Below are positions 4,312 through 30,188 of a DNA stretch of 64,000 nucleotides, piece by piece. The DNA is from Polytrichum commune (taxonomy: Eukaryota; Streptophyta; Polytrichopsida; Polytrichales; Polytrichaceae). Each line of letters begins with the position of its first letter. The first letter of the stretch is position 1. The notes beneath the pieces were generated by a model, which did no database searches, had not been told where the DNA came from, and saw only the letters and a list, made by a program, of their open reading frames with translations. The stretch spans positions 28,644,001 through 28,708,000 of the forward strand of contig OX485806.1 in assembly GCA_950295325.1 (NCBI GenBank), written 5' to 3'. The position numbers and the translations under genes were made by a program.

Positions 4312-4964
4312 TTTCTACCTCAAAAATATCACACACTACTAGTTGAAGTACACCAAAACAGTGATGAAACGAACAAATACAAACGATCCATTTCTTGCAA
4401 AAAACCGGGCTTTTTCTACTATGCTTTCAACCATAATGGAAATATGTATTTACAGTATTACAGCCTTCTAGCTGTAGCCGAAGAAAATCATTAATTAAGT
4501 CGGAAAAAAAATCATTTAAAAATAATAATAAATCATTAAAACGGCATTTTTCTGACATGGGCCCTTGCTGTTTTTCCCAGACCACCTCTTTTGCTTGTGC
4601 CAACGGAAAACCCATTGGACCATGGCAGTGGATAGAGTAGGCTTAAAAATATATATTTTGTGGACCTCAACCTCCGTGGTCACTTTGCCATTTTTTCCTT
4701 GGTGTAAACCCAAGTCGTCCCGGAACGACTTCAACGTCCAATCACATCGCTTAGATGGCCGTGGGACGACTTCATGGTCCATAGTGTAAACCGCCCCTAA
4801 TATGATGCACTATTTTTTTTCCCGTGACATGGCCACGTGTACCTGCAATGGCTTAAAGTGTTGGTTTAAGCACTCTCTACCTTAGTGAACACTTTATAGA
4901 GCACATTTTTGTGAAGTTCTCCCCCAAAAAAGGCCTTCTTTGAGGGCCAGACAATTGTTTTCAA
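4312..4964. other. Upstream of trihelix relic, small hAT-derived remnant
   Basis: No gene is recognised. At 4,890-4,970 the sequence AGAGCACATTTTTGTGAAGTT and the following GGCCTTCTTTGAGGGCC resemble 12,620-12,680 inside the hAT relic there, so a fragment of the same family is present. A segment at 4,690-4,800 carries an inverted GTCGTCCC/GGGACGAC motif. Confidence 0.4.
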
Positions 4965-6205
4965 AATAAGGTCTGTACAGTGAACTCAATTGCACATGGA
5001 CGTGGCTGGTATCGCCGGAACTATGTCTGCAAGAGTGTCTTGTAGTCAGCGAACGATCATCGCATTACATTGCATAACCTCGCATCGCCATTTGTAGGCA
5101 CTCATTTTCATGATTCTCCACCCTGCATCCTCTCTCAAATCGATCTCTCAATCTGCCCGCAGGATCAGGTCCAGGCTCAATCAAGGTTAGAGCTAGGCTT
5201 CAGGAGATCCATCACCACGTGCACCGGCCGGGGGTTTAATTGGCCGTAACTCTTCATTACTCGGATCGTCGCCACAGACACCTCCCGTCCTCATCTCTCT
5301 CTAGTCGCTCCTGCAGGTGAATTCAGTGCCGATTGCTTTTATGATTGATGAGGTAGAGATGCTAGCGCCAGATTGCATTTGTTACTTGCCACAGGGTGGG
5401 TGCTTGCGAGTGCAGGTTAAGTTGGTAGAGACTAGTGTCATGGTGGGAAATGCTGCTGCTGCTGCTGCTCCATGTGGTGAAGTTCTTGAGCTGGGGGACA
5501 TTTGTAGAGGTTCCTTCTGACGCAAGAAGCAATACAACAGTAGTGCTACCCTCTTGTGCATTTGCTTTGTGGTTGGTTTATAGTGGAAATGTATGCTACC
5601 CCTTCTCTTGACCTGTGTGAAATACTTTTGTAATAGGACTGTGTGATTGTTTTCCCCTGTGGAGGTTTGAGGATCAGAAAATTTTGACACTTTGAAATCA
5701 TCCTGTGAGAAATGTCGACTTCCTGTTTCTGTGGGACAATGTAATTCCTGATCGTGTGCATTGGTGTCGGTGTTGTTTTGAGATGGAAATGCATGTGACC
5801 CTTTGTTCTCGACCTCTGGAAACTTAAGGTAGACTTGTGTTAACTGGATACTTTTTTTCTCTCTGCGCCCACCTCTTGTCGGCTATAACCATCATGCAAT
5901 TATTTTGTGCGAGATGATTAGCAGATCCAAATGGTGCCAGTAGTCATTTGCCTCCTCATTTTTGGAGCTCATATGAACATCTTATTCACTATCGAAGTGG
6001 AGATTTCCGTGCTCATTAAGTGGTCATATAGGTCCCCCAATCATGTTGACTTCTAGACTGGTTAGGATATTTTGAGTGTATGAAGCATGACTCCATGTCC
6101 TCATCATGTTTGGTGAGCACTGGGCCGGAGTAGTCCATACCATAGCGCCTAAAACAAGGGGGATTGATTCTTCTGCAACTTGCACAGGTTGCTTGCAATT
6201 TCAAA
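4965..6205 (+). other. Block B: CT-rich leader-like region with conserved small ORF
   Basis: The stretch 5,100-5,310 is CT-rich and leader-like. It contains a CTGCAG/GTG junction that looks like a splice acceptor. A frame follows at 5,317-5,520 (67 codons, with an Ala run encoded by GCT repeats) that is also open in copy 2 at 18,017-18,223. The two differ at a few residues and by one to two Ala codons. The product is unknown. Copy 1 lacks about 390 bp found in copy 2 after GGATATTTTGAGTGTA. This could be a non-coding transcript or the first exon of an unknown gene. Confidence 0.35.
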
Positions 6206-6266
6206 AATAAAACTCTAAGATTCTATATGAAGCCATATTTCAGAGAAAACCTATTTTAATTAAAAC

Positions 6267-6845
6267 CCCGGGTACGCAACTCCCATATTATACGCAGGGG
6301 GCATCGTACTTAAAACGGCTTAGAGGATAGCTTTTGTAAAAATTATATCAAATTAAAATGATCAAAAACTTGGGTGAAGACCAAATTAAATAAAATGAGA
6401 TGAAAAAAAAGTTGGGTAAAGACCAAATTAAACAAAATGAGATGAAATTTTTTTTGGGTAAAGACCAAATTAAATAAATGAGATGAAAAAAAAGTTGGGT
6501 TGCATATTTATTAAGCCTCCCATTAAAATTATAAGCCACGAATAGTTGCCTCCCATTAAAATTATAATTCATTCACAATGTTAAAATATTATTAAAAAGT
6601 CCAAAAAGTTGGGTAGTTTGACCTATGGTACCTGTATTAAAAAAATCATATAATTAGGTTTTTAATGCAATTATATGCTTCAAAATATATTCATTTCCTA
6701 TATATAATTTCATTTTTGGATTCCTTGTTAGAAGGGCTACAAGGGTTTCCTACATTAAAAAAAATAATATCACTCAATATTGGACTAAAACGCATTATAA
6801 GTGATTATAATTAGGACCATATAATACGGGAGTTGCGTACCCGGG
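6267..6845. mobile_element. hAT-type MITE with 8-bp TSD
   Basis: Terminal inverted repeats start CCCGGGTACGCAACTCCC at the left and are matched in reverse complement at the right, extending about 25 bp with one or two mismatches. The element is flanked by ATTAAAAC on both sides (6,259-6,266 and 6,846-6,853). An 8-bp duplication is the hAT signature. The matching place in copy 2 (near 17,195) reads straight through, giving an empty site. Inside are three 42-43 bp units (GGGTAAAGACCAAATTAAA core, 6,368-6,500) and a doubled GCCTCCCATTAAAATTATAA. It has no coding capacity. Confidence 0.9.
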
Positions 6846-7626
6846 ATTAAAACCACAAGAAAATTCAAAACATTTTAATGACAAACTGAGTGATAATATA
6901 GAAGTAAGGATAGTCATGAAGCACGTCTGCGACTAGCCCACAATGTATATGAGCCACAAAGCCTACATGCCACATGTATATGAGCATCATATGGCTCCCT
7001 CTTAGACTTTTTTTTCCTAGCAAGCTAATAATATCGTTAACATACATTCTAATATTTTCAAAATTTCTGAATAATAGAAGTAAATTGAAAGAATTGTAGA
7101 ATTCTACATCAAATCATAACAATTGTGAAACTAGTCCGAAAATCACAAAACATTCACACCCTGTGTGAGGTATGTATAAGAATACCGCGATAAAGACCAT
7201 GCGTGGGTATATTATGGAATGCAGAAGAGCTTCCTTAAAAATAGGTGAAAACTATGTGGGCAGAATATAAAATTGTGAAGCGTCACACATTAAGTGCATT
7301 ACCGCTTGCCCAGCAAATATATCCTATAACCTAGGAAGTTTCAAGATTGTCATGTGCACTACATAGTGGCCAACTCTGACCATATAGGATGTATGAACTT
7401 CTTGAGGGACAATCTATGTAAATGGATTGGATTGAATACAGAACAGATCTTAAAACATTGACACCTCTGTCAGATGTAGCATACATATAAAGTAGGCAAC
7501 CAAACCACAAATCTGCACAATTGTTGCACAAATGAGTCAATCCCTGTAACAAATCATGCAACTCAAATTGCGTACTTTGACACCAGCAACAAACCACACA
7601 AGACATATGTGAGGGGTATTTCTTAC

Positions 7627-9314
7627 CATGCACTGTAACAGGAGGCAGGAATTCTCCACTTGTTGTTTGCAAACACACCACACTCGGTAAAAGCATCAGG
7701 CTTGTATTTCAGCTGCTTTGTAAAACCGAGACTTCGCAACCCTTCCCTTACTCTCTTCACATCATCCATGTCCAGGTAATTCTTTGTGAACACACATATC
7801 ACATGCGTGTCATTGTCCTGATTTTTCATCGATACGTCGGCCAGGGTCCCAAGAATGCCACTTGTAACACCTTCTGCAACCTGCACAGTTTACCACTAAA
7901 TACTTCATTGAGTACATGCTACAGCTATTTAGTGGTAAACTATGCACAACACCTAGGACCTAGGTATACTGTGTATACATACCACTAAATGCATACAACT
8001 ACATGCACAGCACCTAGGACAAAATTTGTCACAAAGCATACTCAAGTCATGCTTACCTTCAATGCCAAAAAGCAGCAAGTCATAACAGTTCACCATGTCT
8101 TAAACCAGACAAGAACTACACAGAATTGTCACAAAGAAGCGTAGAGAATTCCTCTTCAACATGAACAAAGTGAACAACTCCAGAGAGAACACAAAACTGA
8201 GTCCTTCGTAGAATCTTGAGATTGTGGATTTGGACATAACAGAGAACCTGAGATGGAGAAATAAATATCACATCTTACAAGACACTCATATGACACACGT
8301 GATTCTATTCCTCAGTGGACAGGGTGGTGGAAATTTTCATAGCATATTCCAATAAAAGCAGATACAGCACGCATGGCAGGTTTAACCATGAAAAAGTTGG
8401 ACATAACCAAAATTGTTGATGTTATACAACTAAATACCTCAAAACCTTTTGATAGACTGATTGATGATAAGAGGTACATCCCATATCCGATAAAGCAAGG
8501 TCACCCATAAACCTGGAAAGACCTTATGCCTTCCATGTGAGTTAAATAAGCACAAGGCCACTATCAACACTTCCCAGAACCAACCTCAATATCTTCACTT
8601 TACCACATTGTACCAGAATAAGTTCACTGACTCCATTCTATCACTTCGCGCTCACCATCCAAAAACACATCAATAAAATTTGCAGGCAATCAAGACAATA
8701 ACATAATCTTCCAGGACAATTGGCATTATATTATAAAGTCGTTCGACATTTTCCCTTATTGAAGTCTAAAAACTCTTAAGAGGCTACTTGCATATGACCT
8801 GCAACTATGCATTAATCACAGATAACATCACAATACAGAGAAGATAATGATGCAAATTACCCGCTTTTTGGGAAACTATAAACCCTAAACCATAACCGTA
8901 AACCCTAAACCTCCTCACAAACTTTCCACCTCAACACCAAATTCAATTTGCAGGGACTAAACTGAATAGGATGAACAGCTCAAACAGTTGCAATAGTCTG
9001 AAACAAACCTTTGACCAATCCCTATCAACAGACGCAGGATCGGAGAAGATCATCCATTTGCCACCTAGTACACTGTACTCGACAGCGAGCGCATGCAAAT
9101 CTGTACAAGACACAGCATCATTTCTGCTCAAGCAGAGGCTGCTCCATGCTTTGGAAAGCCCAACACTATCCGCCTCTGACTCTTTGGTTGCAGAATCACC
9201 AGCAGGATTTAAGACATAAATCCAGGAGTCACTTGGAGCCGTGGTGCTTGAGGGTGGCCATCTTTGTAAGAACTGTTGCAGGCTCTGGACTTCCGGATCA
9301 TGGATGATTCTCAT
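7627..9314 (-). CDS. BLES03/UPF0696 (DUF1917) family gene, copy 1
   Basis: Exon 1 is 9,314-9,009 (306 nt, 102 codons, starting at an ATG) and ends at a GTTTGT donor. Exon 2 is 7,880-7,627 (254 nt), bounded by GCAG and GTAAGA. The phase is clean. Exon 1 ends in the GGKWMIFSDPASVDRDW block, and exon 2 continues with a VAEG segment and then VREGLRSLGF, LKYKPDAFT and NNKW, typical of this family, whose proteins have an eIF4E-like fold in known structures and an unclear role. A last exon supplying the C-terminus is expected below 7,627 but I could not place it. Copy 2 of the duplication has the same two exons with equal lengths. The segment TLADVSMKNQDNDTHVI in exon 2 departs from the family pattern more than copy 2 does. 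It may be a functional paralogue or an early pseudogene. Confidence 0.75.
7882..7946. other. Inverted repeat at BLES03 exon 2 splice acceptor (copy 1)
   Basis: GTTTACCACTAAATA and its reverse complement face each other across about 25 bases, so the transcript could form a stem of 15-20 bp. Read on the minus strand, the stem ends at the GCAG acceptor of exon 2, which has no clear polypyrimidine tract. The same structure is in copy 2 at 21,109-21,173 with a longer perfect stem. Confidence 0.8.
8876..8912. repeat. Interstitial telomere-like repeats
   Basis: AAACCCTAAACC-type units occur three times within about 37 bp in intron 1 of the copy 1 BLES03 gene. They match the plant telomere unit or telo-box. 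The segment lies in the 500-bp part of the intron that copy 2 lacks. Confidence 0.7.
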
Positions 9315-10320
9315 GTCTGGGGTTTAGGAGGTAGCCCAGAGTAAAAGCTGCCTGCAATTCCCAGCATCAACAACAAGCCATGCCACCTCTTCGCATACCA
9401 ACACGCACTATTTACTTGTCGTAAGTTGAAAGTTGTAAAACGAAGGCCAACAATTTACACAGGCCACCGTACATTCAAGAAAACTGCACTCACCCATGTG
9501 AATTGAAATACAATTCAAACCAGAAACAAACTCACCATAATCATGCCACACGGCAGCTAAGAATTGCAACAAACACCCTTGCCAAGTTTTGGTAGAATTT
9601 ACACCCACCTCAAACCTCTGTGCAGTTTGTTTCTATTTCGATGATCAGATCGCCCCCTTAGCCTTCTGCCGAACCTCACTCACTCAACGCCTGGATCAAT
9701 ATTCGCAACAGAAAGCTTCGATCAAACTGAGAAACGCTTTAAGTCATCGCGTGGACAGGACGCGAAAAGTTTGGGGACAGACGCGGTGGTGGCCCCACCA
9801 CGCCGGCCAGAGCTCCAGCGCCCCACCACGCCGGACAGGGTCCCTTTAGCGTCCGGCATTCTTCATCTAGGGCACGAAAGTGTGGTTTGAACGGGTACTC
9901 TACGATACTCTCTATTTACATCCAAAATTGCTGCTTTGTGATGGCTGGGCACCGTCTTTATGTGCCGCTGTTTTGAATAAACCACCAACAGATCCTGAAA
10001 TAGTTGCATAAACGTCACAGTGATTACAGTTGTCTTGTTGATCTTTTGCAATAGGAGCGTCGCTTGTTCTAGCTGACGCCTTGCTTTTTGTGGAGAGGTC
10101 GACGACATACTTGTTGTGAATGTGGTTGCTTTGAAGAAACCACCAACAAAACCTGAGACTGTCGCATCAAGCACAGTATCACAATTGATTTTGTGTGTTC
10201 ATGGTCATCTGTGTCTATGATCAGCCAAGATAGATTCGTATGTAGTTGTGATCGAAGATGCATGCTCATTTGGGTGGGCTGCACGTATTTATATATGATT
10301 TGGAAGCGATTTTTGATTAA
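9315..10320. promoter_or_regulatory. Probable shared upstream region of BLES03 copy 1 and the plus-strand unit at 10,321
   Basis: This stretch lies between the BLES03 start (minus strand) and a plus-strand transcribed-looking unit. It is almost identical to 21,960-22,950, apart from a 16-bp deletion in copy 2 near 9,800 within a GC-rich CACGCCGG repeat. At 9,985-10,010 and 10,138-10,165 a segment of about 50 bp around AAACCACCAACA recurs imperfectly. The inference of a divergent promoter rests on position only. Confidence 0.35.
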
Positions 10321-11098
10321 TTGCAGCATCAGCTACTCGAGGTTGCAACAATGACAGACGGCGACGGTGGATACGAAGCTGACGCAACACCGACCCTCGC
10401 TGGAACCCATCTCAAAACCCACCACCTACAAAAAGTTCCTGACCTCATCAGGAGCCTCGACCTACAAATGCAAGCCAGAAATTATGACCATATTAACCCG
10501 CACAGACTAATGCAGCATGATGCAGACATTCAAGTGTGTAATCATATGTTATTAATAGCCTGTTGAGGGTTAGGAACATCAAGTACTTCTTCCATGCGCA
10601 CCTTTTGATACACTAACGGCCTTAGTCCTGCAGATCGCCTTGTTTGAATGATTTATAAGTCGAGGTTTGAGTATTTGACGGATACACCCGAGTTTCTTGG
10701 AAGCAATCTATCCAACAATGTTGTAGAGATAATATTGATAAATTGTGGTATCTGCCATCAGCTTTCCTGAAGCTGGGAAGGGTACCTAACTTAGCCTTCG
10801 AGGATATATAGCGGTGGCGCTTTTCGGCTGATGATTATGCTACGATGATCCGTAGGTGTTCTTATCTACATGTTGAGCAGATCCATGTAAATGAAAACTA
10901 CTTTTGTATGTGTCAGTGTACAAATGTGTCGTGGACTCATGAATGTTCTATTGCAATAGAGTCAACCGTGAGTTTGATCACTCTTTGAGAAAACTTTCTA
11001 TCGAGAGCTCGTTAGCTCTTAATGTATCAGAGGCTTGGAGCCTATTTTCAAAGTTGGCGGAAACTTATAAGATCTCCTCTTTCCACCTGTCAGATTTG
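10321..11098 (+). other. Unit with conserved short ORF, three copies in window
   Basis: After CTACTCGAGGTTGCAACA an ATG opens a short frame beginning MTDGDGGYEADATP. The same leader and start recur at about 22,950 (near identical) and at 19,287, where the frame begins MPGGNGANIEAD and runs into a Pro tract. Downstream, all three share motifs such as GAGCAGAT, TTTGTATGT and GTGCAATGT-like stretches. The frames are short and diverge after about 15 residues. The unit may be a non-coding transcript or a first exon. I recognise no family. Confidence 0.35.
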
Positions 11099-11117
11099 GA
11101 GAAGCCATCGCCTTTAG

Positions 11118-11678
11118 CAGTGTTTAAGATTGAAACCCTCATATGAGTTTCATTTTGAAGGGCTCTCAAATTTCAGCCCTTCATCTAAAGGGTTAGTTCA
11201 AATCCAAGACGTCAATCCAAGAATATAGAAATGAAATACAAAACTTATATTAAACTTGTGCATGAATTATATGGATACATGTTTCCAGTGCACTGTGAAG
11301 AATTAAGAATCAACCATCTTACTCCACATCTTGTAGTGACAATAACACCATATTCGAAATTTTGGGAAAATTCCATGATTTTGGGAAAATACAGTTTAGG
11401 TTGAGTCGACCTAAAATGTACCCACTGGGTACATTTTAGGTCGACTCCACCTAAACTGTCATCAAATTGGGAGACTGGAAATCTCCCAAAATTTCGAATA
11501 TGGTGTTCAATGCTCTATGCTTGTTAGTTCTTGTGACGGGCAGATTACATTGAAGACTTCAAGTGACGTCTTCATTTTCAATTTGGGGTTGCGTTATGAA
11601 GGGTTATTTAGAGAGAGGTATATTTTGAAGGGCCAAATTGCGTTTGAAGGGCATTGAAGACTTCAGTCTTGAACACTG
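11118..11678. mobile_element. Non-autonomous hAT element with 8-bp TSD
   Basis: The left end CAGTGTTTAAGATTGAA pairs with the right end CTTCAGTCTTGAACACTG as an imperfect terminal inverted repeat. The flanks are GCCTTTAG on both sides (11,110-11,117 and 11,679-11,686), a perfect 8-bp target duplication. The interior matches the ends of the larger relative at 13,642-14,748 but lacks its transposase part. A fold-back element is nested at 11,344-11,507. Confidence 0.92.
11344..11507. mobile_element. Nested 164-bp fold-back element, 4-bp TSD
   Basis: The whole element is an inverted repeat with arms of about 82 nt. The outer 24 bp (AACACCATATTCGAAATTTT...) and the inner roughly 35 bp around GTCGACCTAAAATGTACCCA are essentially perfect. 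It is flanked by CAAT on both sides (11,340-11,343 and 11,508-11,511). The related hAT copy at 13,856-13,870 reads GTGACAATGC without interruption, which is an empty site. The superfamily is not clear from a 4-bp duplication and AACACC ends. Confidence 0.85.
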
Positions 11679-11689
11679 GCCTTTAGTCT

Positions 11690-11990
11690 TCAAAAAAACA
11701 TAACTCTCTTGTGTTTATAATATACTGGAGCTCGCTGTGCATGCTCATTTCTATATTTAAGTTAGATAATTGGGAGGGGGGGGGCTAGCTCAAAAAGGAA
11801 GGCCTCCAGATTGGTTGCATGGTTTACTGAAGTCTTACTACCCTATTGGTGGAGGTTATAAGTGTAGGATGTTTTTCCAGTTGCCGACAGTAACAAAATG
11901 CTTCCATTCCCTGTCTTCAGTTCATGGCCAACCAGTCAGACTCATAAATGCAAGCTGTAGTTAGGACGAGATTTGAGATGCAGGGCCATG
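11690..11990. other. Spacer with no gene seen
   Basis: This is AT-rich spacer with a run of G at about 11,772-11,784. No convincing reading frame or repeat is seen. Confidence 0.4.
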
Positions 11991-12721
11991 CCGTGTTCAA
12001 GTTTGAAGTGTGGACATGCATGCATTTCAAGGTGAATGGCTTCCAAATAATCACACTTCACTCGAACTTTCAAACCTTTTTGCGACACTTCACCAAACAA
12101 AAACACCAACTTGATATCGGCCATTTTGTATTAAACATGAAAATGTTATGATGTCTCACTATATTGAATAAGTACATGCAATAAAACGATGCACTAGAAT
12201 TATTTCGATTCCCTACATAATGCATTGATTCATCATCCAACTCCAAAGGCAAAGCCCCCCGGTTTTTGGTCGATTTCCAAGTGTCAAAAATTCTAGCCCA
12301 ATCCATATTTTCCATCGGAGGATTGTATAATGACACTTGCATTAATGCATCCAATGTGTCAAGTTTGAATCGACTTCTACAATCACTCTTCACCCAATTT
12401 TGTTTGGAAAATCCACCTTCGCATATAGTTGTGCTTGCCAAGTTGAAGTTCCAGTCGGCGCCAAGTCGAAGTTGTAGAGTCGAAATTGCAGGAGTTATTG
12501 GAATTTGGAAGTGTCTACTAGAGTGCCAAGATTGGAGTCCCACTAGGTTTCTATTTGCAAATTGGAGTCCCTGTTATTTTGTGACAAGCGATTTTTGGAG
12601 GGGCCTTCACTGGATACTTTGTAGAGCACATTTTTGTGAAGTTCCCATGAAAAGAAAAAGGCCTTCTTTGAAGGCCAAAATGACATTTGACACGTGTTGA
12701 AGACTTCAATATTGAACATTG
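11991..12721 (-). mobile_element. hAT transposase relic (C-terminal dimerisation region), second member
   Basis: A minus-strand frame at 12,543-12,070 contains CEGGFSKQNWVKS and LDTLDALMQVSL followed by FDTWK. It aligns with the copy at 13,830-14,225 and corresponds to the C-terminal hAT dimerisation region next to the RNase H-like fold. The right end, CTTCAATATTGAACATTG (12,704-12,721), is like the family terminus. The left end at 11,991 (CCGTGTTCAAGTTTGAAG) is more diverged, and no 8-bp duplication is seen. A palindrome GGCCTTCTTTGAAGGCC lies near 12,660. Only the last third of a transposase is present. Confidence 0.65.
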
Positions 12722-13641
12722 TGTGCGAGCGTGTGGTTTGAATTCTTTGGTGGTTTATTTTGATGTCAAAACCTATGATATATGGGAGGAATACGTGACA
12801 ATAAGGAGTGAGATTCAAACCGAGAACATCCGTTTCCCTAGGGGCTCGATTAGTTTTTGCTGAACAAGAAATGAAAAACATAATAAATACAGGAAACAAG
12901 TGAGGAGTGCCATTAACGAGGTTGATATGACGGAATTTAGAATTATAACTGCTATTGCTAGCACAGAATGTTCATTTCCTTTTTCACTCTTACTTTCCCG
13001 ACAAATGAGAACCGAAGTCTGCCCCTTTTTACACAGCCCAGAATTGGCATGGTATTGTCTGGTGCAATTGCTGAAGAACTGCATTTGAAGTCATGACCAT
13101 TCTTTCATTCAGGCGGACATTAAGTTCGCCCGTACGAACTATGGGGGTGTCAGATCCGGGCGGGGACCCGACCGAAAAATTGCTGCCCGCCCCACCCAAC
13201 TTCGAAAAAAATATTGCCCTTGCATTCTTGAAGGCCGTTTGATTACAAATCCCATATTGAGTCCACTTCGCTTTCAAGGTCTAAAATCCAATATATATGT
13301 GCACTTCCAATTAATAAATAAGCAATTCATTGGGATTTTATTCCGAAAATGAAACCATCAATGAAGCACATAATTAACTTGGAGGTCAAATAAAATTACA
13401 AAATCCTCATTAACATTGAGGTTCTAGTTTTTATGAGTTACCATTTGAAATTGTCTTTGTCATTCGAAAATGACACTTAAATTTAGTGTGCTGATTTAGT
13501 ATGTATATTTTATAATATTTTAGTAACGCCGCCTACTTTCACAAGTATTCATACACAATGCATGGATGCTCGGTCAACAAAAACTAATTTGGCATAGTTG
13601 TCAGTAACATCGTTGATTGTAGTATCTACAACATGCACGTT
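12722..13641. other. Spacer between two hAT relics
   Basis: No gene is recognised. A GC-rich patch at 13,150-13,200 contains GGGCGGGGACCCG and CCCGCCCC. The rest is AT-rich, with only short chance frames. Confidence 0.4.
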
Positions 13642-14748
13642 CAGTGCTCAAAATTGAAGCCCTCATATGAATTTCATTTTGAAGGGCTCTGAAATTTCAG
13701 CATTGCAATTGAAGGGCATATCTAAATCTAGGACGTCAATGGAAAATTTTCAAAGAAATATAAAACTTATATTAAAATTATGCATGATTTGCATGGTACA
13801 TGCTTCTAGTACAATGAAATAATGGAGAATCAACTATCTAACTCCACCTCTTGAAGTGACAATGCCCTACGCTTGTTGGTTACTGTAGCAGTTTTCCAAG
13901 TGTCAAAAATGCCATTCCAATCCATGAATTCAACTCCCAAACTGTTTAGGCTAACCCTCATCAATGCATCAAGTGTGTCAAGGTTTAGGCATGTTCTCCT
14001 TTCGCTCTTAATCCAATTCTGCTTTGAAAAACCACGCTCACAAACAGCAGTGCTAGTAGGGATCACAAGTATGGCTTGCCATAGCGACATTAGGGTTGGC
14101 CGATTGATCTTAAACTCTCGGTCACGGCCACAAAAAAACCCAATTTTCATGCATACTTCGGTGTTGACAAGCTGAAGATAACATCTCCACAAATTCGAGC
14201 AACTCCGCATTGGCTTGATCAACAAGAACAGAGCTCCACTTGAAATGTGTCACCAACCGGTTCAACCATTGCTCAGTTAAAGTGCCTCGATCCAATGCAT
14301 CCATGGGATAGTGTTTTAGGCTGAAAAACCTGGCCGCATTAAAAATGGGCAAGTCGGGGAAGCGATCATTTAGTGAGTCAATAACCTTTTGGACGTATAG
14401 TCTACCAAGGGTGATGCAATCCTCCAACGAGCCCCCTACATCACACCCGGGCATAAAGTCATAGTGCAAAGTATGCACTTTCTCACAACCAAACCTATCA
14501 ACATACAATTCCCATTTGGACTAATTCCCATCTGGATCTGAGATTTGGAGCCCAAAGTTAGACAGCCGGAGTTAAACGGCTACTTGAGATGATGAACAGT
14601 TTTTGAAGGGTACTATTTATCTAGCACTTCAAGTGAAGGGAGCACTTAGACATGAGGATTATGTTTTGAAGGGCTGTTTTCCTTGAGGTATTTTTTGAAG
14701 TCCCAAAACCCATTTGAAGGGCACTGAAGACTTCAATTTTGAGCACTG
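13642..14748 (-). mobile_element. Truncated hAT element with transposase C-terminus
   Basis: A perfect 18-bp terminal inverted repeat, CAGTGCTCAAAATTGAAG, bounds 1,107 bp. No 8-bp duplication is visible beside it. On the minus strand two overlapping frames (14,508-14,122 and 14,225-13,830) give the C-terminal part of a hAT transposase of the DUF4371/zinc-finger-862-like type: LNDRFPDLPIFNAARFF, then CERGFSKQNWIKSERR and LDTLDALMRVSL. A frameshift between 14,122 and 14,225 breaks it. The same segment occurs on the plus strand at 39,300-40,045, which supports the family assignment. The N-terminal two thirds are missing. Confidence 0.8.
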
Positions 14749-14923
14749 GTTACTGCAAAAGGTAGTTTGCACCTATTTTTGACACCTAAAGCTACTGCAC
14801 ATAGGTAATGGACACAAATCACATGCTACATGAATTCCCACGACCAAGTGAAAGCATAGCATGATGTGCATTGTATGTGTGCAATGACACATTCACCAAG
14901 ATATTATTGTTAAGGGCCATTTC

Positions 14924-15416
14924 ACACACGAGCCAAGAGCCGTGACCATGAAGTTGTGACAACCCAAAAGAAAGTGTCCGAAGGCCGTCCCAAGACACCT
15001 CCTAAATCATGTAGCGTGGTCACGGATCCTAAAGTGTAGTGTGAAGCCATATGTGACCGGGCCCTCAACCAAATGCTATTTCAATGAATATCTATTCATG
15101 CGGGTCCTCACACATGATAAAATAAAATAAATGATTCAACGGTTATGAGCATTCGGAGTGCCATGGTCTCCCGGTTTTGTGTTAGGCCTACTTCCAAGAG
15201 GTGGTTTTTGAAAATTGTCCAAGCGACCATGAAAGATGATCCATTTGATGCCATGTAAGAATCCATGTAGACTTTACATCCATCTTGCATTCACATGCTC
15301 CGTTGGTCCCTCAAGCATAGTGTGAAGTGAACTTGGGTTGGCTCCACCTTTTCCACCAATGAGAGTGCTTGAAGTGAAATGGTCACAAACTCTTAGTCTC
15401 GTGTGTGAAGTGGCCC
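14924..15416. mobile_element. PIF/Harbinger-type (Tourist-like) MITE, TAA TSD
   Basis: The ends read GGGCCATTTCACACACGAG and, inverted, GGGCCACTTCACACACGAG, a 19-bp terminal repeat with one mismatch. TAA flanks both sides (14,921-14,923 and 15,417-15,419), the 3-bp duplication typical of PIF/Harbinger. It is 493 bp long with no transposase. A diverged end of similar sequence is in block A near 1,396 and 16,990. Confidence 0.88.
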
Positions 15417-17661
15417 TAAGTTTCACTTACAGCTCACTCTAGGTGGGGTCCAAATAGAGGAATAATGTGGTTGAGGGTTGGGAATAAACATATCATGATT
15501 CTCAAAGGACGACGGCTTAATTCTTAATGTCATTTTAACGTGTGCGCCATGTTTTTTGTGCAACATTTACTACTTAGCTGGATTTCACAAATGAATTATC
15601 AAATATGATCATGCTAAATAACATGTTTTGGAGTACTCTGACTTAAAATTTCCGTAGGAAGAAATTGAGATATGTTATAATGTTTTCAAGTTCATGGTTT
15701 TGGAATCCACGTTGAAAAGAGAATTCAACAAGATACCTAATCGGATCTAAATTGGATCACTCTAAGTACCCAAACTTGACAAAATGTGAGGAATAGATGT
15801 GACTATCTTAACCATATCATATCACCACCATTCTTGTTGTCCTCAATGATCCAATATTCCAATTGGATCATATTGGATCAATGATCCAATATTCCAATAT
15901 TCTATATGGTGTGGGCTTCATTTTTCAGAACTTATTTAATAATTTACTTATCTCGATTTGATGTTAAACACACTATAGTAGAAAGTTACATTAGTGCACA
16001 AAATAAAAGAAATCAATGTACTATGCATGACATTACATTTCACAATTTTACATGGGCTAAAGCCCACATGCACACACCTAACCACAATTCTAAACATACA
16101 AATGAAAACCCAGAAAAACAATTCTCAAGTCAAGCAGTGATGGCTTCAAGACATGACAAGCCACTCCATATTTTTGGACTTGTTGTTCACTTTAAAGCTA
16201 CACTGATTATGGTATTTAGTGTAGCTTACTATCTGGAATCTCTTAAGGCTATAACATGTTACTATAGATGTCATTTTTAACCATCAAAGACTAAATAGGT
16301 TGTATGGACAATATACAACATAAATAACTTTACTTGGTTTAAGCATACATTCTTAGCAAAAAATAAGTTATAGCATTGCATATTCCCAATAGTAAGTGAA
16401 CATTGTAGTGGTGACCATGTACAAGAAACTATGATGACCTTGTGCAGGCAATGGTGACCAAATAATAGTGGTGTAAGCCCACGCAATAACAACATAGTAT
16501 TTGTGAAAAACGTCATATTCACGTGCGACTTTTTCTTTTTTCAAGACCGACTCAGATTCTAGTCTTGTGGAGTGCACTTCACTGACTTTGGACAAATTTG
16601 CATTTGAAACTAATTTTTCAATGGGCACCTATAGTGCAAGTTCATAGAGTAAAGAAGTCTTTTTGTATCACAAATGTGACGTTTGATTGTTATCAAGAGT
16701 GTTTGAAGTAACAATGAAGATCATAACATTCATGATATCAAAAAACTTCTTCCCTCATTATCACTTGCATAAGCTACTAGCATTTTGTAAACACATCCAA
16801 ATATAGTTGGCAAAAGTTACCTCCAAAGACCAATTCAAGCATGCCTTTCAATTCAAGACCAATTCAAGAATCCTTTGTGACCGTAACTTTCAAATTGTCT
16901 CCACTCCATTTCAGTGCAGGGACAAGTAACTAATTTAGTGTGTATAGGGTATATTTTTGCAAGTTTTTTACTTGGGACTTGGGATGCCGAGTGAAGTGGT
17001 CCTAAGTACCCACCACCCAAGATATTGAACTCTAGCTTTCAAATGAAGCAGGTTGCGAAGACTCATCACCAATGAACGGGGAGAACCAACAACAACCAAG
17101 AACAAACGAACTAGTTTATTTTCCCAAATTACCAATTCAAAAATAAAACTCTAAGATTCTATTTGAAGCCATATATCAAAAAAATCCTATTTTAGTTAGA
17201 ACCACAAGAAAATTCAAAACATTTTAATGACAAACTGAATGATAATATAGAAGTAAGGATAGTCATAAAGCATGTCTGCGACTAGCCCACAATGTCGCCA
17301 CAAAGCCTACATGCCACATGTATATGAGCATCATGTGGCTCCCTCTAAGACTTTTTTCCTAGCAAGCTAATAATATCGTTAACTTAAATTCTAATGTTTT
17401 CAAAATTTCTGAATAATAGAAGTAAATTGAAAGAATTATAGAATTCTACATCAAATCATAACAATTGTGAAACTAGTCCGAAAATCACAAAACATTCACA
17501 GCCTGTGTGAGGTAGGTATAAGAATACCGCGATAAAGACCATGCGTGGGTATGTTATGGAATGAAGAAGAGCTGCGAGAAAAGTCCACCACGTAGTGTGG
17601 TTGAAAGGATATAATGACAGGTAGAGCTTGCAAATGCAATAAAATACTCAATTGTTGTCAA

Positions 17662-19282
17662 AATTAGGTCTGTACAGTGAACTCAATTGCACATGGACGT
17701 CGGTGGTATCGCCGGAGCTATGTCTGCAAGGCAAGAGTGTCTTGTAGTCAGCGAACGATCATCGCATTACATTACATAACCTCGCATCGCCATTTCTAGG
17801 CACTCATTTTCATGATTCTCCACCCTGCATCCTCTCTCTAATCGATCTCTCAATCTGCCCGCAGGATCAGGTCCAGGGTCAATCAAGGTAAGAGCTAGGC
17901 TTCAGGAGATCGATCACCACGTGCACCGGCCGGGGGTTTAATTGGCCGTAACTCTTCATTACTTGGATCGTCGCCACAGACACCTCCCGTCCTCATCTCT
18001 ATATCTCTAGTCGCTGGTGCAGGTGAATTCAGTGCTGATTGCTTTTATGATTGATGAGGTAGAGATGCTAGCGCCAGATTGCATTTCTTACTTGCCACAG
18101 GGTGCGTGCTTGCGAGTGCAGGTTAAGTTGGTAGAGACTAGTGTCATGGTGGGAAATGCTGCTGCTGCTGCTTCATGTGGTGAAGTTCTTGAGCTGGGAG
18201 GGATTTGTAGAGGTTCCTTCTGACGCAAGAAGCAATACAACAGTAGTGCTACCCTCTTGTGCATTTGCTTTGTGGTTGGTTTATAGTGGAAATATCGCTA
18301 CCCCTTCTCTTGACCTGTGTGAAATACTTTTGTAATAGGACTGTGTGATTGTTTTCCCCTGTGGAGGTTTGAGGATCAGAAAATTTTGACACTTTGAAAT
18401 CATCCTGTGAGAAATGTCGACTTCCTGTTTCTGTGGCACAATGTAATTCCTGATCGTGTGCATTGGTGTTGGTGTTGTTTTGAGATGGAAATGCATGTGA
18501 CCCTTTGTTCTCGACCTCTGGAAACTTAAGGTAGACTTGTGTTAATTGGATACTTTTTTTCTCTCTGCGCCCACCTCTTGTCGGCTATAACCATCATGCA
18601 ATTAATTTGTGCGAGATGATTAGCAGATCCAAATGGTGCCAGTAGTCATTTGCCTCCTCATTTTTGGAGCTCATATGAACATCTTATTCACTATCAAAGT
18701 GGAGATTTCCGTGCTCATTAACTGGTCATATACTGTAGGTCCCCCAATCATGTTGACTTTTGGGTCTAGACTGGTTAGGATATTTTGAGTGTATAATCCA
18801 ATCTCCTTTAAACACGTGTCATTTCGGTGTCCTTCTTAGATCCACAACTAACCACATATCACACTCCAGTATGGGTGTCGAAATTCTTGGTCTATTGGAG
18901 GTAGGTATGTCTAGCTTATGTAAAAAGGAATGATGCTTTTCTCTGGGGATTTAAGGATCAGCAAATTTAATTTACATTTGAAATCATCGTGTGTGGATCA
19001 TGTGTGCGTGCAGCAACTTTTGCCTCTAGTGAGGGAATCAAAGGAAGGGGTTCATTTACTTAACCTCTACCCGTTTTTGTGTGGCATATCAAAGTCCTCT
19101 TTTGTATGCAATGGTTTTGTTGTTGTTTGAGGTGGAATTTATATTGATCCTTTTGTTCCTTGAAGCATGACTCCATGTCCTCGTCATGTTTTGTGAGCAC
19201 TGGGCCGGAGTAGTCCATATCATAGCGCCTAAAACAAGGGGGATTAATTCTTCTGCAACTTGCACAGGTTGCTTGCAATTTC
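17662..19282 (+). other. Block B in copy 2, with conserved small ORF
   Basis: This block is equivalent to 4,965-6,205. The 68-codon frame at 18,017-18,223 matches that at 5,317-5,520 with a shorter Ala run. An extra segment at 18,790-19,150 resembles 18,370-18,510 in the same block (GGATCAG...TTTGAAATCATC...GTGTG, then a GTTGTTTGAGGTGGAA-like end), so an internal degenerate duplication is present here that copy 1 has partly lost. Confidence 0.35.
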
Positions 19283-19286
19283 TACT

Positions 19287-20460
19287 CGAGGAGGTTGCAA
19301 CAATGCCGGGTGGCAATGGCGCAAACATCGAAGCTGATCCTCACCCCAACTCTGTGTGGAACCCATCTATACCGACACCGCCTCCTCCTCCACCACCGCC
19401 TTACAGCAAATGATGAGGTTACATAGTGCAGCAATATGCAGACATCCAAGTGTGTAATCCTATGATGATATGTAGGGAAGGGCAAGGAAGACCTAATTCC
19501 AAGCCCTTGCCTTGCCACGGTGATCCGGTGATTGCGTTTGCAGGGCAAGATTACTTGTCTTATGTGGCATAGTAGGCCAAAGGCAGATATATTGCTTTCT
19601 GCAGCCATCTTGCGGAAAAAGTTCAATGTCGAGTATGCTAATGTCTAGTATACCATCTACCTTTTGACAAACAGATGTTTTCAGTTCTGGGTACTTTGCA
19701 GATTGCAAGATCACGTTCACCAACTGAAGTTTGCTTGTGCCTGAGCTTCAACTCCAGTTTCTCGGAAGCAATCCATCCACGATTAGTGGACAAGTTAGTG
19801 CTGTCTGCAGCCATCAACACTTGAAGCTTCACTAGGACGAGGTTATAATCTTAGTACCTTACCCTTAAAATGGCAGTATTCGAGTGTGTATCTCCAATAT
19901 TGATGCTACCATAATCTGAAGGTTTATTGTGTACATGTGGAGCAGATAGCCTAGTTTAAATTTACCTTTGTATGTTCTGGTGTGCGAATGTGTTGTGAAT
20001 TCTCTGTTGCAATATTCAATCAAGTTGTCATCCTAGTATCTACTGCTATGAATGGGAAACATGGTTTTGGTAGTATGTGCAAAATCCATAATAGCCTTTC
20101 TTAGGTTGCTAATTAAGTCATAAGTATCACCTACCATGATGCCAGTATCTGTGAAGTACACAATGGACCTGCATTCAAGTAGGTTGTCTGAATGAATCAA
20201 GCAGGAGGTATGAGATGTGATGTTACATTGATAATGTATAGCTTAGAATATTGACTAGCTATTGACCACTGTTAATGCCATGGACCTTGAAAGCTAACCT
20301 ACTGCCACTTCCGTCTTTATAACCAGTTAGGGGTTTGTGACAGGGTAGTCTTGCTTGACATATCTTCAAGTATGAAAGGGTCACCCAAATATTTGGTTTT
20401 GTAACAAACAAAAATCTTATTGTCTGCAGATCAATGACAGAATTGATCAGTCGAAACTTC
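19287..20460 (+). other. Block B': older third copy of the 10,321 unit
   Basis: It starts with CTACTCGAGGAGGTTGCAACAATG and a short frame with a proline tract (PPPPPPPP). Later stretches (TGTACATGTGGAGCAGAT, TCAAGTTGTCATCCTA, AGGTTGCTAATTAAG) match the unit at 22,950-24,130 at low identity. The function is unknown. Confidence 0.45.
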
Positions 20461-20853
20461 CTTCAAAATGGGTGAAAACTATGTGGGCAAAATATAATAT
20501 TGTGAAGCGTCACACATTAAGTGCATTACCGCTTGCCCAGCAAATATATCCTACAACCTAGGAAATTTCAAGATTGTCATGTACACTACATAGTGGCCAA
20601 CTCTGACCATATAGGATGTATGAACTTCTTGAGAGACAATTTATGTAAATGGATTGGATTGAATACAGAACAGATCTTAAAACATTGACACCTCTGTCAC
20701 ATGTAACATACATATAAAGTAGGCAACCAAACCACAAATCTGCACCATTGTTGCACAAATGAGTCAATCCCTGTAACAGATCATGCAACTCAAATTGCGT
20801 ACTTTGACACCAGCAACAAACAATGCAAGACATATGTAAAGGATATTTCTTAC

Positions 20854-21959
20854 CATTCACTGTAACAGGAGGCAGGCATTTTCCACTTGTTGTTTGCATA
20901 CACACCACAATTGGTAAAAGCATCGGGCTTATACTTCAGCTCCTTGGTAAAACCGAGACTTCGCAACCCTTCCCTTACTCTCTTCACATCGTCCATATCC
21001 AGGTAATTCTTTGTGTACACACATGTCACATGCATGTCATTGCCATTAGTTCTAGGCGCTACCTTGGCCGAGATCCCAAGAATGCCACTTGTAACACCTT
21101 CTGCAACCTGCACAGTTTACCACTAAATACTTCATTGAGTACAGGCTACAGCTATTTAGTGGTAAACTGTGCACATCACCTAGGACCTAGGTATACTGTG
21201 TATACATACCACTAAATGCATACAACTACATGCACAGCACCTAGGAAAAAATTTGTCACAAAGCATACTCAAGTCATGCTTTCTTTCCATGCCAAAAAGC
21301 AGCAAGAGATAACACTTCACCATACTACACAAAACTGTCACAAGGAAGCGTAGAGAATTCCTCTTCAAAATGCACAAAACTGAGTCTTTCGTAGAATCCT
21401 GAGATTGTGGATTTGGACATAAAAGAGAACCTCAGATGAAGAAATAAATATCACATCTTACAAGACACTCATATGACACACGTGATTCTATTTGAACATG
21501 GTGGTGGAAACCTTCATAGCATATTCCAATAAAAGCAAATACAGCACGCAGAGTAGGTTTAACCATGAAAAAGTTGGACATAACCAAAATTGTTGATGTT
21601 ACTCAACTGAATAGGATGAACATCACAAACATTTGAAATAGTTTGAATCAAACCTTTGACCAATCCCTATCAACAGACGCAGAATCGGAGAAGATCATCC
21701 ATTTGCCACATAGTACACTGTACTCGACAGCGAGCGCATGCAAATCTGTACAAGACACAGCATCATTTCTGCTCAAGCAGAGGCTGCTCCATGCTTCGGA
21801 AAGCCCAACACTATCCTTCTCTGACATTTTGGTTGCAGTATGACCAGCAGGATTAAAGACACAAATCCAGGAGACACTTGGAGCCGTGGTGCTTGAGGGT
21901 GGCCATCTTTGTAAGAACTGTTGCAGGCTCTGGACTTCCGGATCATGGATGATTCTCAT
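20854..21959 (-). CDS. BLES03/UPF0696 (DUF1917) family gene, copy 2
   Basis: Exon 1 is 21,959-21,654 (306 nt) and exon 2 is 21,107-20,854 (254 nt), with the same splice phases and lengths as copy 1. Intron 1 is about 546 bp against about 1,128 bp in copy 1. Exon 2 reads GISAKVAPRTNGND and then VREGLRSLGF, LKYKPDAFTNCG and NNKWKMP. The AKVAPR block fits the family better than copy 1 does, so this copy looks closer to the ancestral sequence. The C-terminal exon is not located. Both exons are fully open. By eye, exon 2 differs from copy 1 at about 30 of 254 positions, far more than the neighbouring intron. Confidence 0.75.
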
Positions 21960-27365: not shown

Positions 27366-27845
27366 GACATGATCTTGTCCAAAAGGTTGTTTTCACTCAA
27401 CCACAGTTTAGGAAACCACAATGGCCAAAACCTCAACCCAAAAAAACCCGTTGTCCAGTCTCACTCGATTGTGGGTCTGCATGCTATGAAAGTGCCCTGT
27501 GAAGTCAACATGCTCGATTTTTTGGTTTGTGATCTTTTCGATATATGTTTGCAGAGTGGAGGATTATTGGGAAGGGTACAAGTTGTTTTGCTACGCATAC
27601 TATTCGCATTCGTTCCAACACGAATATGAATTTCAGCAATCCAAATTGGGTTCGTGATTTTTCTCCATTGAATTGTTTTTTTGTGGTTGTTTTTGGTTCT
27701 TTCTTCTTTTCCGGGCTCCTATGAATCGATGTTGTGTGTAGCTTTTGAGGGCCTCCGCAATGGCTAAGTTTGCGCAGGGCAGCTTGTGTGGCGACGACAT
27801 TCTGGGTTGCCTCTTCCCTCCCATCATTTGCTCCGCACTACATGC

Positions 27846-30188
27846 ATGCAACTTCTACCTCTTGTGGAGATGTACTGCAAGTGGGAGTTGGAAGAGGACT
27901 GTAGCAACCTTCGGGCTCTCATGCTCGGGTTTGACTCCGAACTGGAGTTGGAAGCGCATGAATTGGGGCGCTCGCTTTTGTTTATGGTTCGGGATGACGA
28001 TATGGGTTTGAATAGTTTGCCGCAACGCGTACGCCCAATGTCACAGACCAACCCATTCGATGTTGTCAGGGAGAGGCTGACAGCAGTGGGCTCCGCTATT
28101 CGGGATCTCCATCCACAGGTGCACATACTTTCGGATTATTCTTCTTCTTCATATAAACTAGCCAAGAAATTTGTGGTGGCATTGAAGATGGGAACCAAAT
28201 TGTTTCATACTTGCAATGGCATTGAATTTGAAAACGAGGTGGATACAAAACACATTCGCTTTAATCGTGGATGGCATCTAAGATGTTTTCCATTTCCAAC
28301 ACACATATGGTTTCACACTCATTGTCATTTCCATGTCTATGTTGTGTGCTACTTGGAATCAAAATGTCAAAATTGTGTCGGCATTTCGTATCGTGTGCAT
28401 GGTGCTACGCTAAGTTCTTCCCTATGCACTATTGTGTTGCCTAAATCCCATTTTGTATGCAAGAAGGTTGCAAACTCAGAAGAAGAGGGAGTGCCTCAAT
28501 CTGACTCCGAACTGGATTCTCCTTCTCGGTGCCGCCCACCTCTTGATCTTCTTCCTTGTGAGCGCGACGAGCCAGCTCCACCTGCAATACCGACAATGTC
28601 TGACCTTCCAGGAAATGCTTTTGGCGGATCATGGTCTCCACCCTGCCTCCCCTCGGCTGCTCCATACGCTCCACATGTGGCCCCTTGCGCCGGACCGGCC
28701 AACATTCCCCTACACCTTGTACCGAACCCACATTCAATGGCCACACCCGACATTACCACCGCCATTCGCATTGTACTAGCATGCATTGATATATGTGTGG
28801 TTATGATTTCAATGTACATAACATCAACGGAGGCAAGTGAGGATCATTTTGCACATAGAAATAAATTGAGGAGGAGGAGGAATGAAGACGATGTGTATAT
28901 GTCATTACACAAGCAATTGGGACATGACCACGAAGACAATGCATTAGAACACCCACATGTGAAGCAAGTTTTTGACCTCTTTGCTTGGCACATTGGGGTT
29001 ATAGATGCAAAATGGTATGTGAAGCCTAGATCGACATGTTGGTTCGAAGAATATATTTTCAACATCTATACGCCCGATATGTTCTACGATATCCTGCGAA
29101 TGCGAAGGAGAATTTTTGACAGGCTAGTCCGCGACCTACGACCTTTCATACAAGGCCAACATACCCACTGGAGACAGCCTATCGGAGTGGAGAAGAAAGT
29201 AGTGGTTACACTATTCAAGCTCATGCATGGTGTCTCTATACCTTTGGTCGCCGACAAGGCCGCACTTGGCAAATCCACTGTGCATGGTATATTACGGCAA
29301 GTTTGCTCGGCCATAAACAACCACTTTGGACACTTAATTACATGGCCAGCTGGCCGTAGGTTGATGCGAATCGCGTCTGCCTTCCAGTCTAAGCAATGGT
29401 TTCCAAACTGTATTGGTGCTATAGATGGTTCGCATATTTATGTTGCGGCGCCATCAAATACTATTGTGGCGGCTGACCATCGCAACCGAAACAAGTCATT
29501 TTCTATCTTACTCCAAGGTGTTGTGGATAGCAAGTGCTATTTCACCTCCATCAACACCGGCCCGCCAGGATCCCTACACGACAGTGCGCACTTCAAGAAC
29601 ATGGAGTTTTACCGCAAAGTGGAAGAAGGAACAATGGGTGGGTTTCACGACGATCCATTGACTTGAGAAACTGGACTTCCATTTCCTTCCTATATTGTGG
29701 CGGACCGGGGGTACCCGCTCTTGAGTTGGTACATTACACCATTCAAGATGGGCCCCATGAGGCGGCCTCTTTCAAAAAAAAAGGCTTGGTTCAATCGAAA
29801 ACATTCCTCCACGTGAATGAGCGTTGAGAAAGGATTTGGCATATTGAAAGCAAGGTTTAAAGAGATTGGAACTAAATCATCACTGAAACTTGATTTTTTA
29901 CCTACGGTTGTACATTGTTGTTGTGTCTTGTACAACATATTGCTTGCCAGCAAAGACCGGACGTTGGATCAAATTCTAATGGATTGCCATCTTCCACCAA
30001 TGCACGACAACGACTTGCTACGTAGAGACGAAGAAGAGTGTTTTCAACTTCCAAGACCAATAGGTCTTGTGAGCAAAGAAAGAGCTTTACTAGAAGGACA
30101 AATGGCGAGGGAGGACATTTTGGACTATCTAGTACGTGTTCAAAACTCCAACCATATAGCAAGCCACCCGAGTACACAAAAAACTTGA
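27846..30188 (+). pseudogene. Harbinger-type (PIF) transposase, two in-frame stops
   Basis: From the first in-frame ATG at 27,846 the frame stays open to a TGA at 29,664-29,666, meets a second TGA at 29,814-29,816, and then continues to 30,188, all in one frame. The nuclease core is clear: a helix-turn-helix-like segment (VADKAALGKSTVHGIL), GAIDGSHIYV with the first catalytic Asp, VADRGYPL with the second Asp, and VEKGFGILKARF with the catalytic Glu. The plant PIF/Harbinger nuclease domain (DDE_Tnp_4) has this order. The N-terminal 200 codons are not transposase-like, and the frame from about 28,120 to 28,465 may be an unspliced intron. Both stops lie between the first Asp and the Glu, so the product cannot be active as read. 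No TIRs or TSD were found around it. Confidence 0.85.

Follow-up and report, generated by a model that had tools for sequence, protein, structure and literature searches.

The three BLES03 (PF08939) genes of a tandem array in Polytrichum commune are probably paralogues that diverge under selection against homogenising exchange, one of them, copy B, possibly having become a re-tooled protein or a pseudoenzyme. The window, which is the whole 64,000-nucleotide stretch analysed here (contig OX485806.1, positions 28,644,001 to 28,708,000 of assembly GCA_950295325.1), contains copies B and C, and copy A is placed just beyond it. Relationships among the copies are mosaic, and each copy has its densest cluster of private changes in coding sequence. 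Ectopic gene conversion or unequal exchange would homogenise the array, while selection would keep and drive amino-acid differences in one short segment per copy. If true, this would be a compact example of paralogues held apart by selection against homogenising exchange.

Array layout and exchange between copies

A preliminary description of this DNA recognised two BLES03 genes in a recent duplication; both (copy 1, here B, and copy 2, here C) are indeed BLES03 genes, in an array that has three. On the minus strand, copy B comprises exon 1 (9009-9314, 102 codons), an intron of 1,128 bp (7881-9008) and exon 2 (7623-7880, including the stop codon); copy C, on the same strand, comprises exon 1 (21654-21959), an intron of 546 bp (21108-21653) lacking a long stretch found in A and B, and exon 2 (20850-21107, including the stop codon). 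Splice sites are identical in place and the open frame is 187 amino acids in each; B and C are each 86% identical to A. Open reading frames listed in the duplicated units established no other gene there, and exon and intron divergence are compared on the BLES03 genes alone. Contig C47, 99.993% identical to contig C4 over 30,045 bp, holds exon 2 of B unaltered. An assembly error behind this exon was set aside on that ground, though C47 may share reads, and its copy of B is probably not independent support.

Divergence between B and C changes from segment to segment, from 1.2% in about 1.1 kb upstream (13/1057 sites) through 3.9% in exon 1 (12/306), 5.0% in the 3' flank (20/397) and 6.2% in the intron (34/546) to 11.7% in exon 2 (30/256), where it is about twice that of the intron. 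Much of what had been estimated by eye is borne out by these counts: exon 2 is more diverged than the introns, at about 30 sites, well above either flank, and the roughly 12 differences in exon 1, said to be nearly all amino-acid changing, are 12 of 12 nonsynonymous. The proposed 1-4% for introns and flanks holds upstream but understates the intron and the 3' flank.

Which copy holds the private changes differs between upstream region, intron and 3' flank (chi-square p=1e-11), so that the array is a conversion-like mosaic, in data that do not separate conversion from unequal crossing-over. Across the 5' flank (9315-10400) B resembles C most and A stands apart; a 2,873-bp tract without any B-A difference (4797-7669), which ends inside exon 2 of B, is a recent conversion or exchange tract. 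Exchange among the copies is real, and its role is that of a homogeniser.

Private clusters and tests for selection

The excess of B in exon 2 belongs to one 20-codon block and not to the whole exon, because the unconverted remainder has private changes at the intron rate. In this block (exon 2 codons 12-31, protein residues 114-133; 7788-7847, minus strand), whose limits, like those of the other private blocks, were picked after inspection of the data, 14 of 60 sites are private to B, compared with 7/153 elsewhere in the unconverted exon and 23 of the 546 three-way aligned intron sites (p=0.82 for the latter two). All 10 codons of the block at which B differs from both A and C are nonsynonymous. 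Clustering in one stretch, already suspected, is confirmed by a single 60-site window with 17 of the 30 exon-2 differences between B and C, a count reached by none of 2000 shuffles. Over codons 10-30, A and B are separated by 14.3 nonsynonymous and 0.7 synonymous differences; outside these codons dN/dS is 0.31 (A-B) and 0.36 (B-C), values that alone are not significant (p=0.08), and elsewhere in exon 2 most B-private changes are synonymous. A frameshift was rejected as origin of the block, as the aligned codons are in register save for a one-codon indel within it.

Comparable clusters occur in the other two copies. The densest in A covers exon 1 codons 1-14 (10/42 sites), with a 15-bp telomere-like insertion preceding the start codon, and that in C covers exon 1 codons 29-49 (21813-21875, minus strand; 9/63 sites private to C), its private sites falling in seven codons that are all nonsynonymous; only two private changes of B lie in exon 1. 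Among 5000 shuffles, one matched the 60-column maximum of C and none that of A or B, and in noncoding sequence the best windows contain 5 (A), 7 (B) and 6 (C) private changes against 10, 14 and 9 in coding sequence. The weakest cluster is that of C (24/5000 shuffles at 42 columns). Coding sequence makes up 562 of 2559 columns, yet the densest cluster lies there in every copy.

Selection, tested on three sequences from this one species, is clearly favoured as positive in exon 1 and is favoured post hoc in the B block. Among 26 substitutions in exon 1 there is no purely synonymous codon change, all 19 variable codons being nonsynonymous, and codon maximum likelihood puts dN/dS at its bound (likelihood ratio test p=0.0005). 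Multi-base codon changes push dN/dS upward; with single-base codon changes only, all 14 alter the amino acid (p 0.028-0.011 across kappa 1-3). The density of nonsynonymous change in exon 1 exceeds that of the upstream flank (p=3e-6) and is not higher than that of the intron (p=0.11). Both exons together give a dN/dS of 2.67 (p=0.013), while for the whole of exon 2 it does not rise above 1 (1.43, p=0.43), the pairwise values there being 1.02 and 0.94 for pairs with B and 3.43 for A-C. Positive selection, one of three explanations offered earlier, thus fares well for exon 1 and less so for exon 2 as a whole, where the pairs with B sit near 1 rather than clearly below it.

Clustered mutation in each copy, by error-prone repair or template switching, combined with relaxed constraint after duplication, could give rise to such patterns with no need of positive selection. 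The changes are clustered, several codons changed at more than one base, indels lie near two blocks (the insertion at A and the one-codon indel in B), and exon 1 is transversion-rich (transition:transversion 9:17, compared with 54:42 at noncoding sites). Mutation of this kind would have had to strike coding sequence hardest in every copy, to leave no synonymous change among the variable codons of exon 1 and to keep the frames open, and we consider it unlikely as the explanation.

It is improbable that short conversion tracts, donated by diverged BLES03 paralogues since lost or unassembled, account for the odd stretches. The array is mosaic, and in its intron and exon 2 B looks like a more ancient lineage than A and C; however, a normally constrained donor would carry synonymous changes, of which codons 10-30 have almost none between A and B. 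Searches of the assembly by PF08939 profile (E<=0.001, 15 candidates scored) gave no diverged fourth paralogue, and searches with exon-1 protein, exon-2 DNA and exon-2 protein (each at E<=10) gave no fourth copy, the BLES03 loci being A, B, C and their duplicates on contig C47; only the best candidates were scored, so that a copy split by introns or far diverged could escape. An additional exon-2 protein match on contig C3 (E=1.55, with an internal stop codon) was taken as chance. The third copy sought earlier as a source of the odd stretch does exist, as A, and takes part in exchange, but it sides with C in the block and lacks that stretch.

Parallels in other duplicated genes

Selection opposed to exchange between paralogues is a pattern of known kind. 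For exon 5 of the human red and green opsin genes, duplicates that undergo gene conversion, a divergence peak is described where a site is selected (Teshima and Innan, as presented in PMC3924837). Set beside that account, the BLES03 genes are likewise tandem paralogues with less diverged flanks and introns, an exonic peak over likely functional sites and signs of exchange; they also show a nonsynonymous excess, in blocks delimited post hoc and not in exon 2 as a whole. Unlike the opsins as described there, the BLES03 array has three copies with a separate peak in each, an intron itself 4-6% diverged, and sites whose function is predicted only, without a species series. The accelerated segment switch in exons (ASSET) described for snake venom genes in PMC2711939 resembles the present case, as far as that description goes, in altering short exon segments while introns stay more similar; BLES03 is not a venom gene, and its blocks are dense substitutions rather than a swap for unrelated sequence.

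Proposed catalytic residues in copy B

All three proteins resemble BLES03/C11orf68 (structures 1ZTP, 2Q4K), with Pfam scores of 127.8 (A), 116.8 (B) and 120.9 (C) bits against a cut-off of 23.1 and with GKW and YKPD motifs in each; copy A, as query, matches the human structure chain 1ztp_A over residues 11-186 (E 6e-20). A phosphothreonine lyase role for BLES03 has been predicted in silico only (PMC4159009), and the published active-site numbers agree with the letters of the 1ZTP chain. In human numbering, K159 is conserved in 92% and Y175 in 96% of homologues, and each in 81% in archaea (PMC4159009, Table 2). A and C retain this proposed pair; B, unlike the family, does not, having aspartate for K159 (exon 2 codon 15, D117) and phenylalanine for Y175 (codon 31, F133), while the equivalents of K128 and K204 are kept (in B as K86 and K162, with A and C sharing the motifs). 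By replacing the one pair and sparing the other, the block may alter or abolish the predicted enzymatic activity, making B a re-tooled protein or possibly a pseudoenzyme alongside active-looking A and C.

In exon 2 the changed copy is mostly B, as had been proposed. A agrees with C in the block, and with B residues placed into C the Pfam score falls at K, P and Y (by 3.8, 2.5 and 3.1 bits); the proposal fails at one site, where B has the family-like isoleucine and A and C have threonine (+4.0 bits for isoleucine). Decay of B after loss of constraint, another of the earlier explanations, could account for the family-conserved residues lost, but it fits poorly because the frame is open, the splice sites are intact and dN/dS is low outside codons 10-30; with so few private changes in exon 1 and mostly synonymous ones in the rest of exon 2, we regard it as very unlikely.

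A more specific version of the favoured reading, in which selection removed the catalytic pair from B while exchange kept much of the surrounding gene like that of active-type A and C, with B perhaps a decoy or regulator in dehydro-amino-acid chemistry and the other two copies moving apart at different surfaces, is speculative and doubtful. A human enzyme making dehydro amino acids was still being sought in 2025 by the authors of PMC11775630, according to the text of that paper. Copies with and without the proposed pair in a similar background would offer a direct natural comparison. Prokaryotic homologues, too distant and rare to serve as outgroups, were inspected for these residues only: one locus occurs in the genome contigs and 2 of 371 genomes searched in its phylum have one (one being the same genome), and by eye the K159 equivalent is present in both homologues and that of Y175 in one of the two.

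The BLES03 array

A search of the 408-Mb genome with the PF08939 (BLES03) profile returned four matches on contig OX485806.1, corresponding to three genes, and two on a second contig, C47. The latter (30,045 bp) is 99.993% identical to the region holding the first two BLES03 genes; with two differences over 30 kb it is, judging by sequence, probably an unpurged duplicate, and the array is therefore counted as three genes. All lie on the minus strand: copy A just outside the window (OX485806.1:28637963-28639613), copy B at window positions 7623-9314 and copy C at 20850-21959. Each has two exons with splice sites common to all three, and the open frames (188, 187 and 187 residues, respectively) score above the Pfam cut-off (127.8, 116.8 and 120.9 bits). 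Human BLES03 (1ZTP) is matched by copy A with an E value of 6e-20.

Several smaller features accompany these genes. In copy A the leader is separated from the start codon by a telomere-like insertion of 15 bp, close to the divergent block of that copy; AAACCCT repeats are present and were read as telomere-like, which would accord with a land-plant origin. Adjoining the intron 3' splice site in B (7882-7946) and C (21109-21173) is an inverted repeat with 21-nt arms spaced 23 nt apart; one arm overlaps at its end with the CAG acceptor, which looks as though it came from the terminus of a small transposon. Elsewhere in the window (27786-31308), a DDE_Tnp_4-matching frame is neighboured on the opposite strand by a Myb/SANT-like one (slightly under its cut-off); we take the two to resemble a PIF/Harbinger pair. 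Pieces of a Sin3-type co-repressor gene (PAH, Sin3_corepress, Sin3a_C) lie at 44776-49881 on the minus strand; this gene and the introns mark the genome as eukaryotic.

Divergence and its clustering

Pairwise divergence among the aligned genes (in the order A-B, A-C, B-C) is 2.5, 2.5 and 1.2% over about 1.1 kb upstream, 5.2, 7.8 and 3.9% in exon 1, 5.6, 4.0 and 6.2% in the intron, 10.2, 4.7 and 11.7% in exon 2, and 0, 5.0 and 5.0% in the 3' flank. The preliminary description had counted about 30 B-C differences in 254 positions of exon 2, in agreement with 11.7% over 256 sites; its 1-4% for introns and flanks underestimates both the intron and the 3' flank. Divergence also varies along the intron: counted in 300-bp steps, A-B differences rise to 24/300 at 8200-8499, close to the value for the step holding most of exon 2 (26/300).

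In exon 2 copy A groups with C, so that most private changes there (sites at which one copy differs from both others) belong to B: 21 of 256 sites, whereas A has 3 and C has 7, a pattern hidden in a two-copy comparison. Those of B are absent from codons 1-11 and 72-86, occupy 14 of 60 sites in codons 12-31 (the B block; window 7788-7847, protein 114-133), and take up 7 of 120 in codons 32-71. Outside the block, the unconverted part of B exon 2 carries private changes at the intron rate (7/153 and 23/546, p=0.82); the block, its limits picked after inspection, exceeds that rate (p=2e-6). The concentration in one stretch noticed earlier is recovered by scans with no place chosen beforehand, which land on the B block for B-A and B-C differences (0/2000 shuffles) and for B private changes (0/5000).

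Exon 1 has clusters of its own, with 10 of 14 private changes of A in codons 1-14 and 9 of 10 of C in codons 29-49. In every copy the maximum window falls in coding sequence, though this makes up only 562 of 2559 columns; that of A, at 60 columns, includes 20 columns of leader. The C cluster is the weakest, reached by 24/5000 shuffles at 42 columns and 1/5000 at 60.

Tests for selection and exchange

All 19 variable codons of exon 1 are amino-acid changes, in keeping with the earlier remark that nearly all differences there were of this kind. By counting, dS is 0-0.0075 and dN 0.052-0.105 (Fisher p=0.022 for A-B, 0.003 for A-C and 0.048 for B-C), and under a three-branch codon likelihood model dN/dS reaches the upper bound allowed (p=0.0005), with 2.67 for both exons together (p=0.013). 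Multi-base codon changes violate the independence assumption; of the single-base codon changes in exon 1, all 14 alter the amino acid (p from 0.028 at kappa 1 to 0.011 at kappa 3). Nonsynonymous density in exon 1 is above that of the upstream flank (26/239 vs 33/1054, p=3e-6) but, a point against selection like the multi-base changes, shows no significant excess over the intron (43/546, p=0.11).

Also against selection, exon 2 taken whole is compatible with a dN/dS of 1 (likelihood 1.43, p=0.43; counting 1.02, 3.43 and 0.94 for A-B, A-C and B-C, none significant), so that dN/dS per exon, the check proposed at the outset, points to an excess in exon 1 but not in exon 2 as a whole. For codons 12-31, a post hoc block, the likelihood estimate is at the bound (p=0.0014), and for the rest of exon 2 it is 0.49 (p=0.20). 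Counting over codons 10-30 gives 8.05 for A-B (p=0.015) and 4.81 for B-C (p=0.08), with 0.31, 2.12 and 0.36 for A-B, A-C and B-C in the remainder.

Copies A and B show zero differences over 2,873 bp (window 4797-7669), a tract ending within B exon 2; elsewhere their units differ by some percent. The nearest pair is B-C upstream and A-C in the intron and exon 2, while downstream A is identical to B. Private changes shift accordingly over upstream, intron and 3' flank (p=1e-11; upstream vs intron alone, p=0.005). Such a mosaic bears the signature of exchange between the three copies, via conversion or unequal crossing-over. Gene conversion from a third paralogue had been offered as one explanation for the odd stretch, and finds no donor: among the best-scoring candidates, exon 1 and exon 2 queries against the genome match the three copies and their C47 duplicates, plus one chance-level match to the exon 2 protein query. 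As far as these searches can show, the odd block did not arise by exchange.

Proposed catalytic residues and precedents

Khater and Mohanty used fold, docking and simulation to propose phosphothreonine lyase activity for BLES03, naming K159 and Y175 as the catalytic residues, K204 as a possible proton donor and K128 as binding phosphate (human numbering; PMC4159009). Table 2 there gives conservation among homologues of 92, 96, 99 and 98% for K159, Y175, K204 and K128, and 81, 81, 90 and 100% in archaea; the residue numbers cited from it agree with the letters of the 1ZTP chain as aligned with copy A. All four putative active-site residues are kept in A and C. In copy B the putative catalytic pair is replaced, K159 by D and Y175 by F, and K128 (as K86) and K204 (as K162) are retained. 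The K159 equivalent is kept in 2/2 archaeal homologues and the tyrosine in 1/2.

Residues were also swapped singly between copies and scored with the Pfam profile (change in bits). Placing B exon 2 residues into C costs 3.8 for K to D, 3.1 for Y to F, 2.5 for P to M, and 1.9, 1.8 and 0.9 at three others; codons 70 and 66 give 0.0 and +0.3. T to I gains 4.0: here it is B that still has the family-like residue, an exception to the earlier view that B is the copy that changed, which holds for most of exon 2. In exon 1, giving B the residues found in C or A produces both losses (Y33C -3.2, E45M -1.1, H74D -1.0, L35F -0.1) and gains (D40H +0.1, A48K +0.3, L35R +0.6, G84C +1.6, D29V +1.8); the odd copy out is therefore not always the one that departed from the family.

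Selection keeping duplicates different under gene conversion produces a divergence peak, as described for opsin exon 5 (PMC3924837), and the BLES03 array fits the same kind. Venom genes, too, are described with change confined to exon segments (PMC2711939). Titles and abstract openings among the matches listed include no publication on selection between BLES03 paralogues. Authors of a 2025 paper were still searching for a human enzyme with the predicted BLES03 activity (PMC11775630). What looks new here is where the peak of one copy falls, over the residue pair proposed as catalytic in a family whose function is itself predicted.
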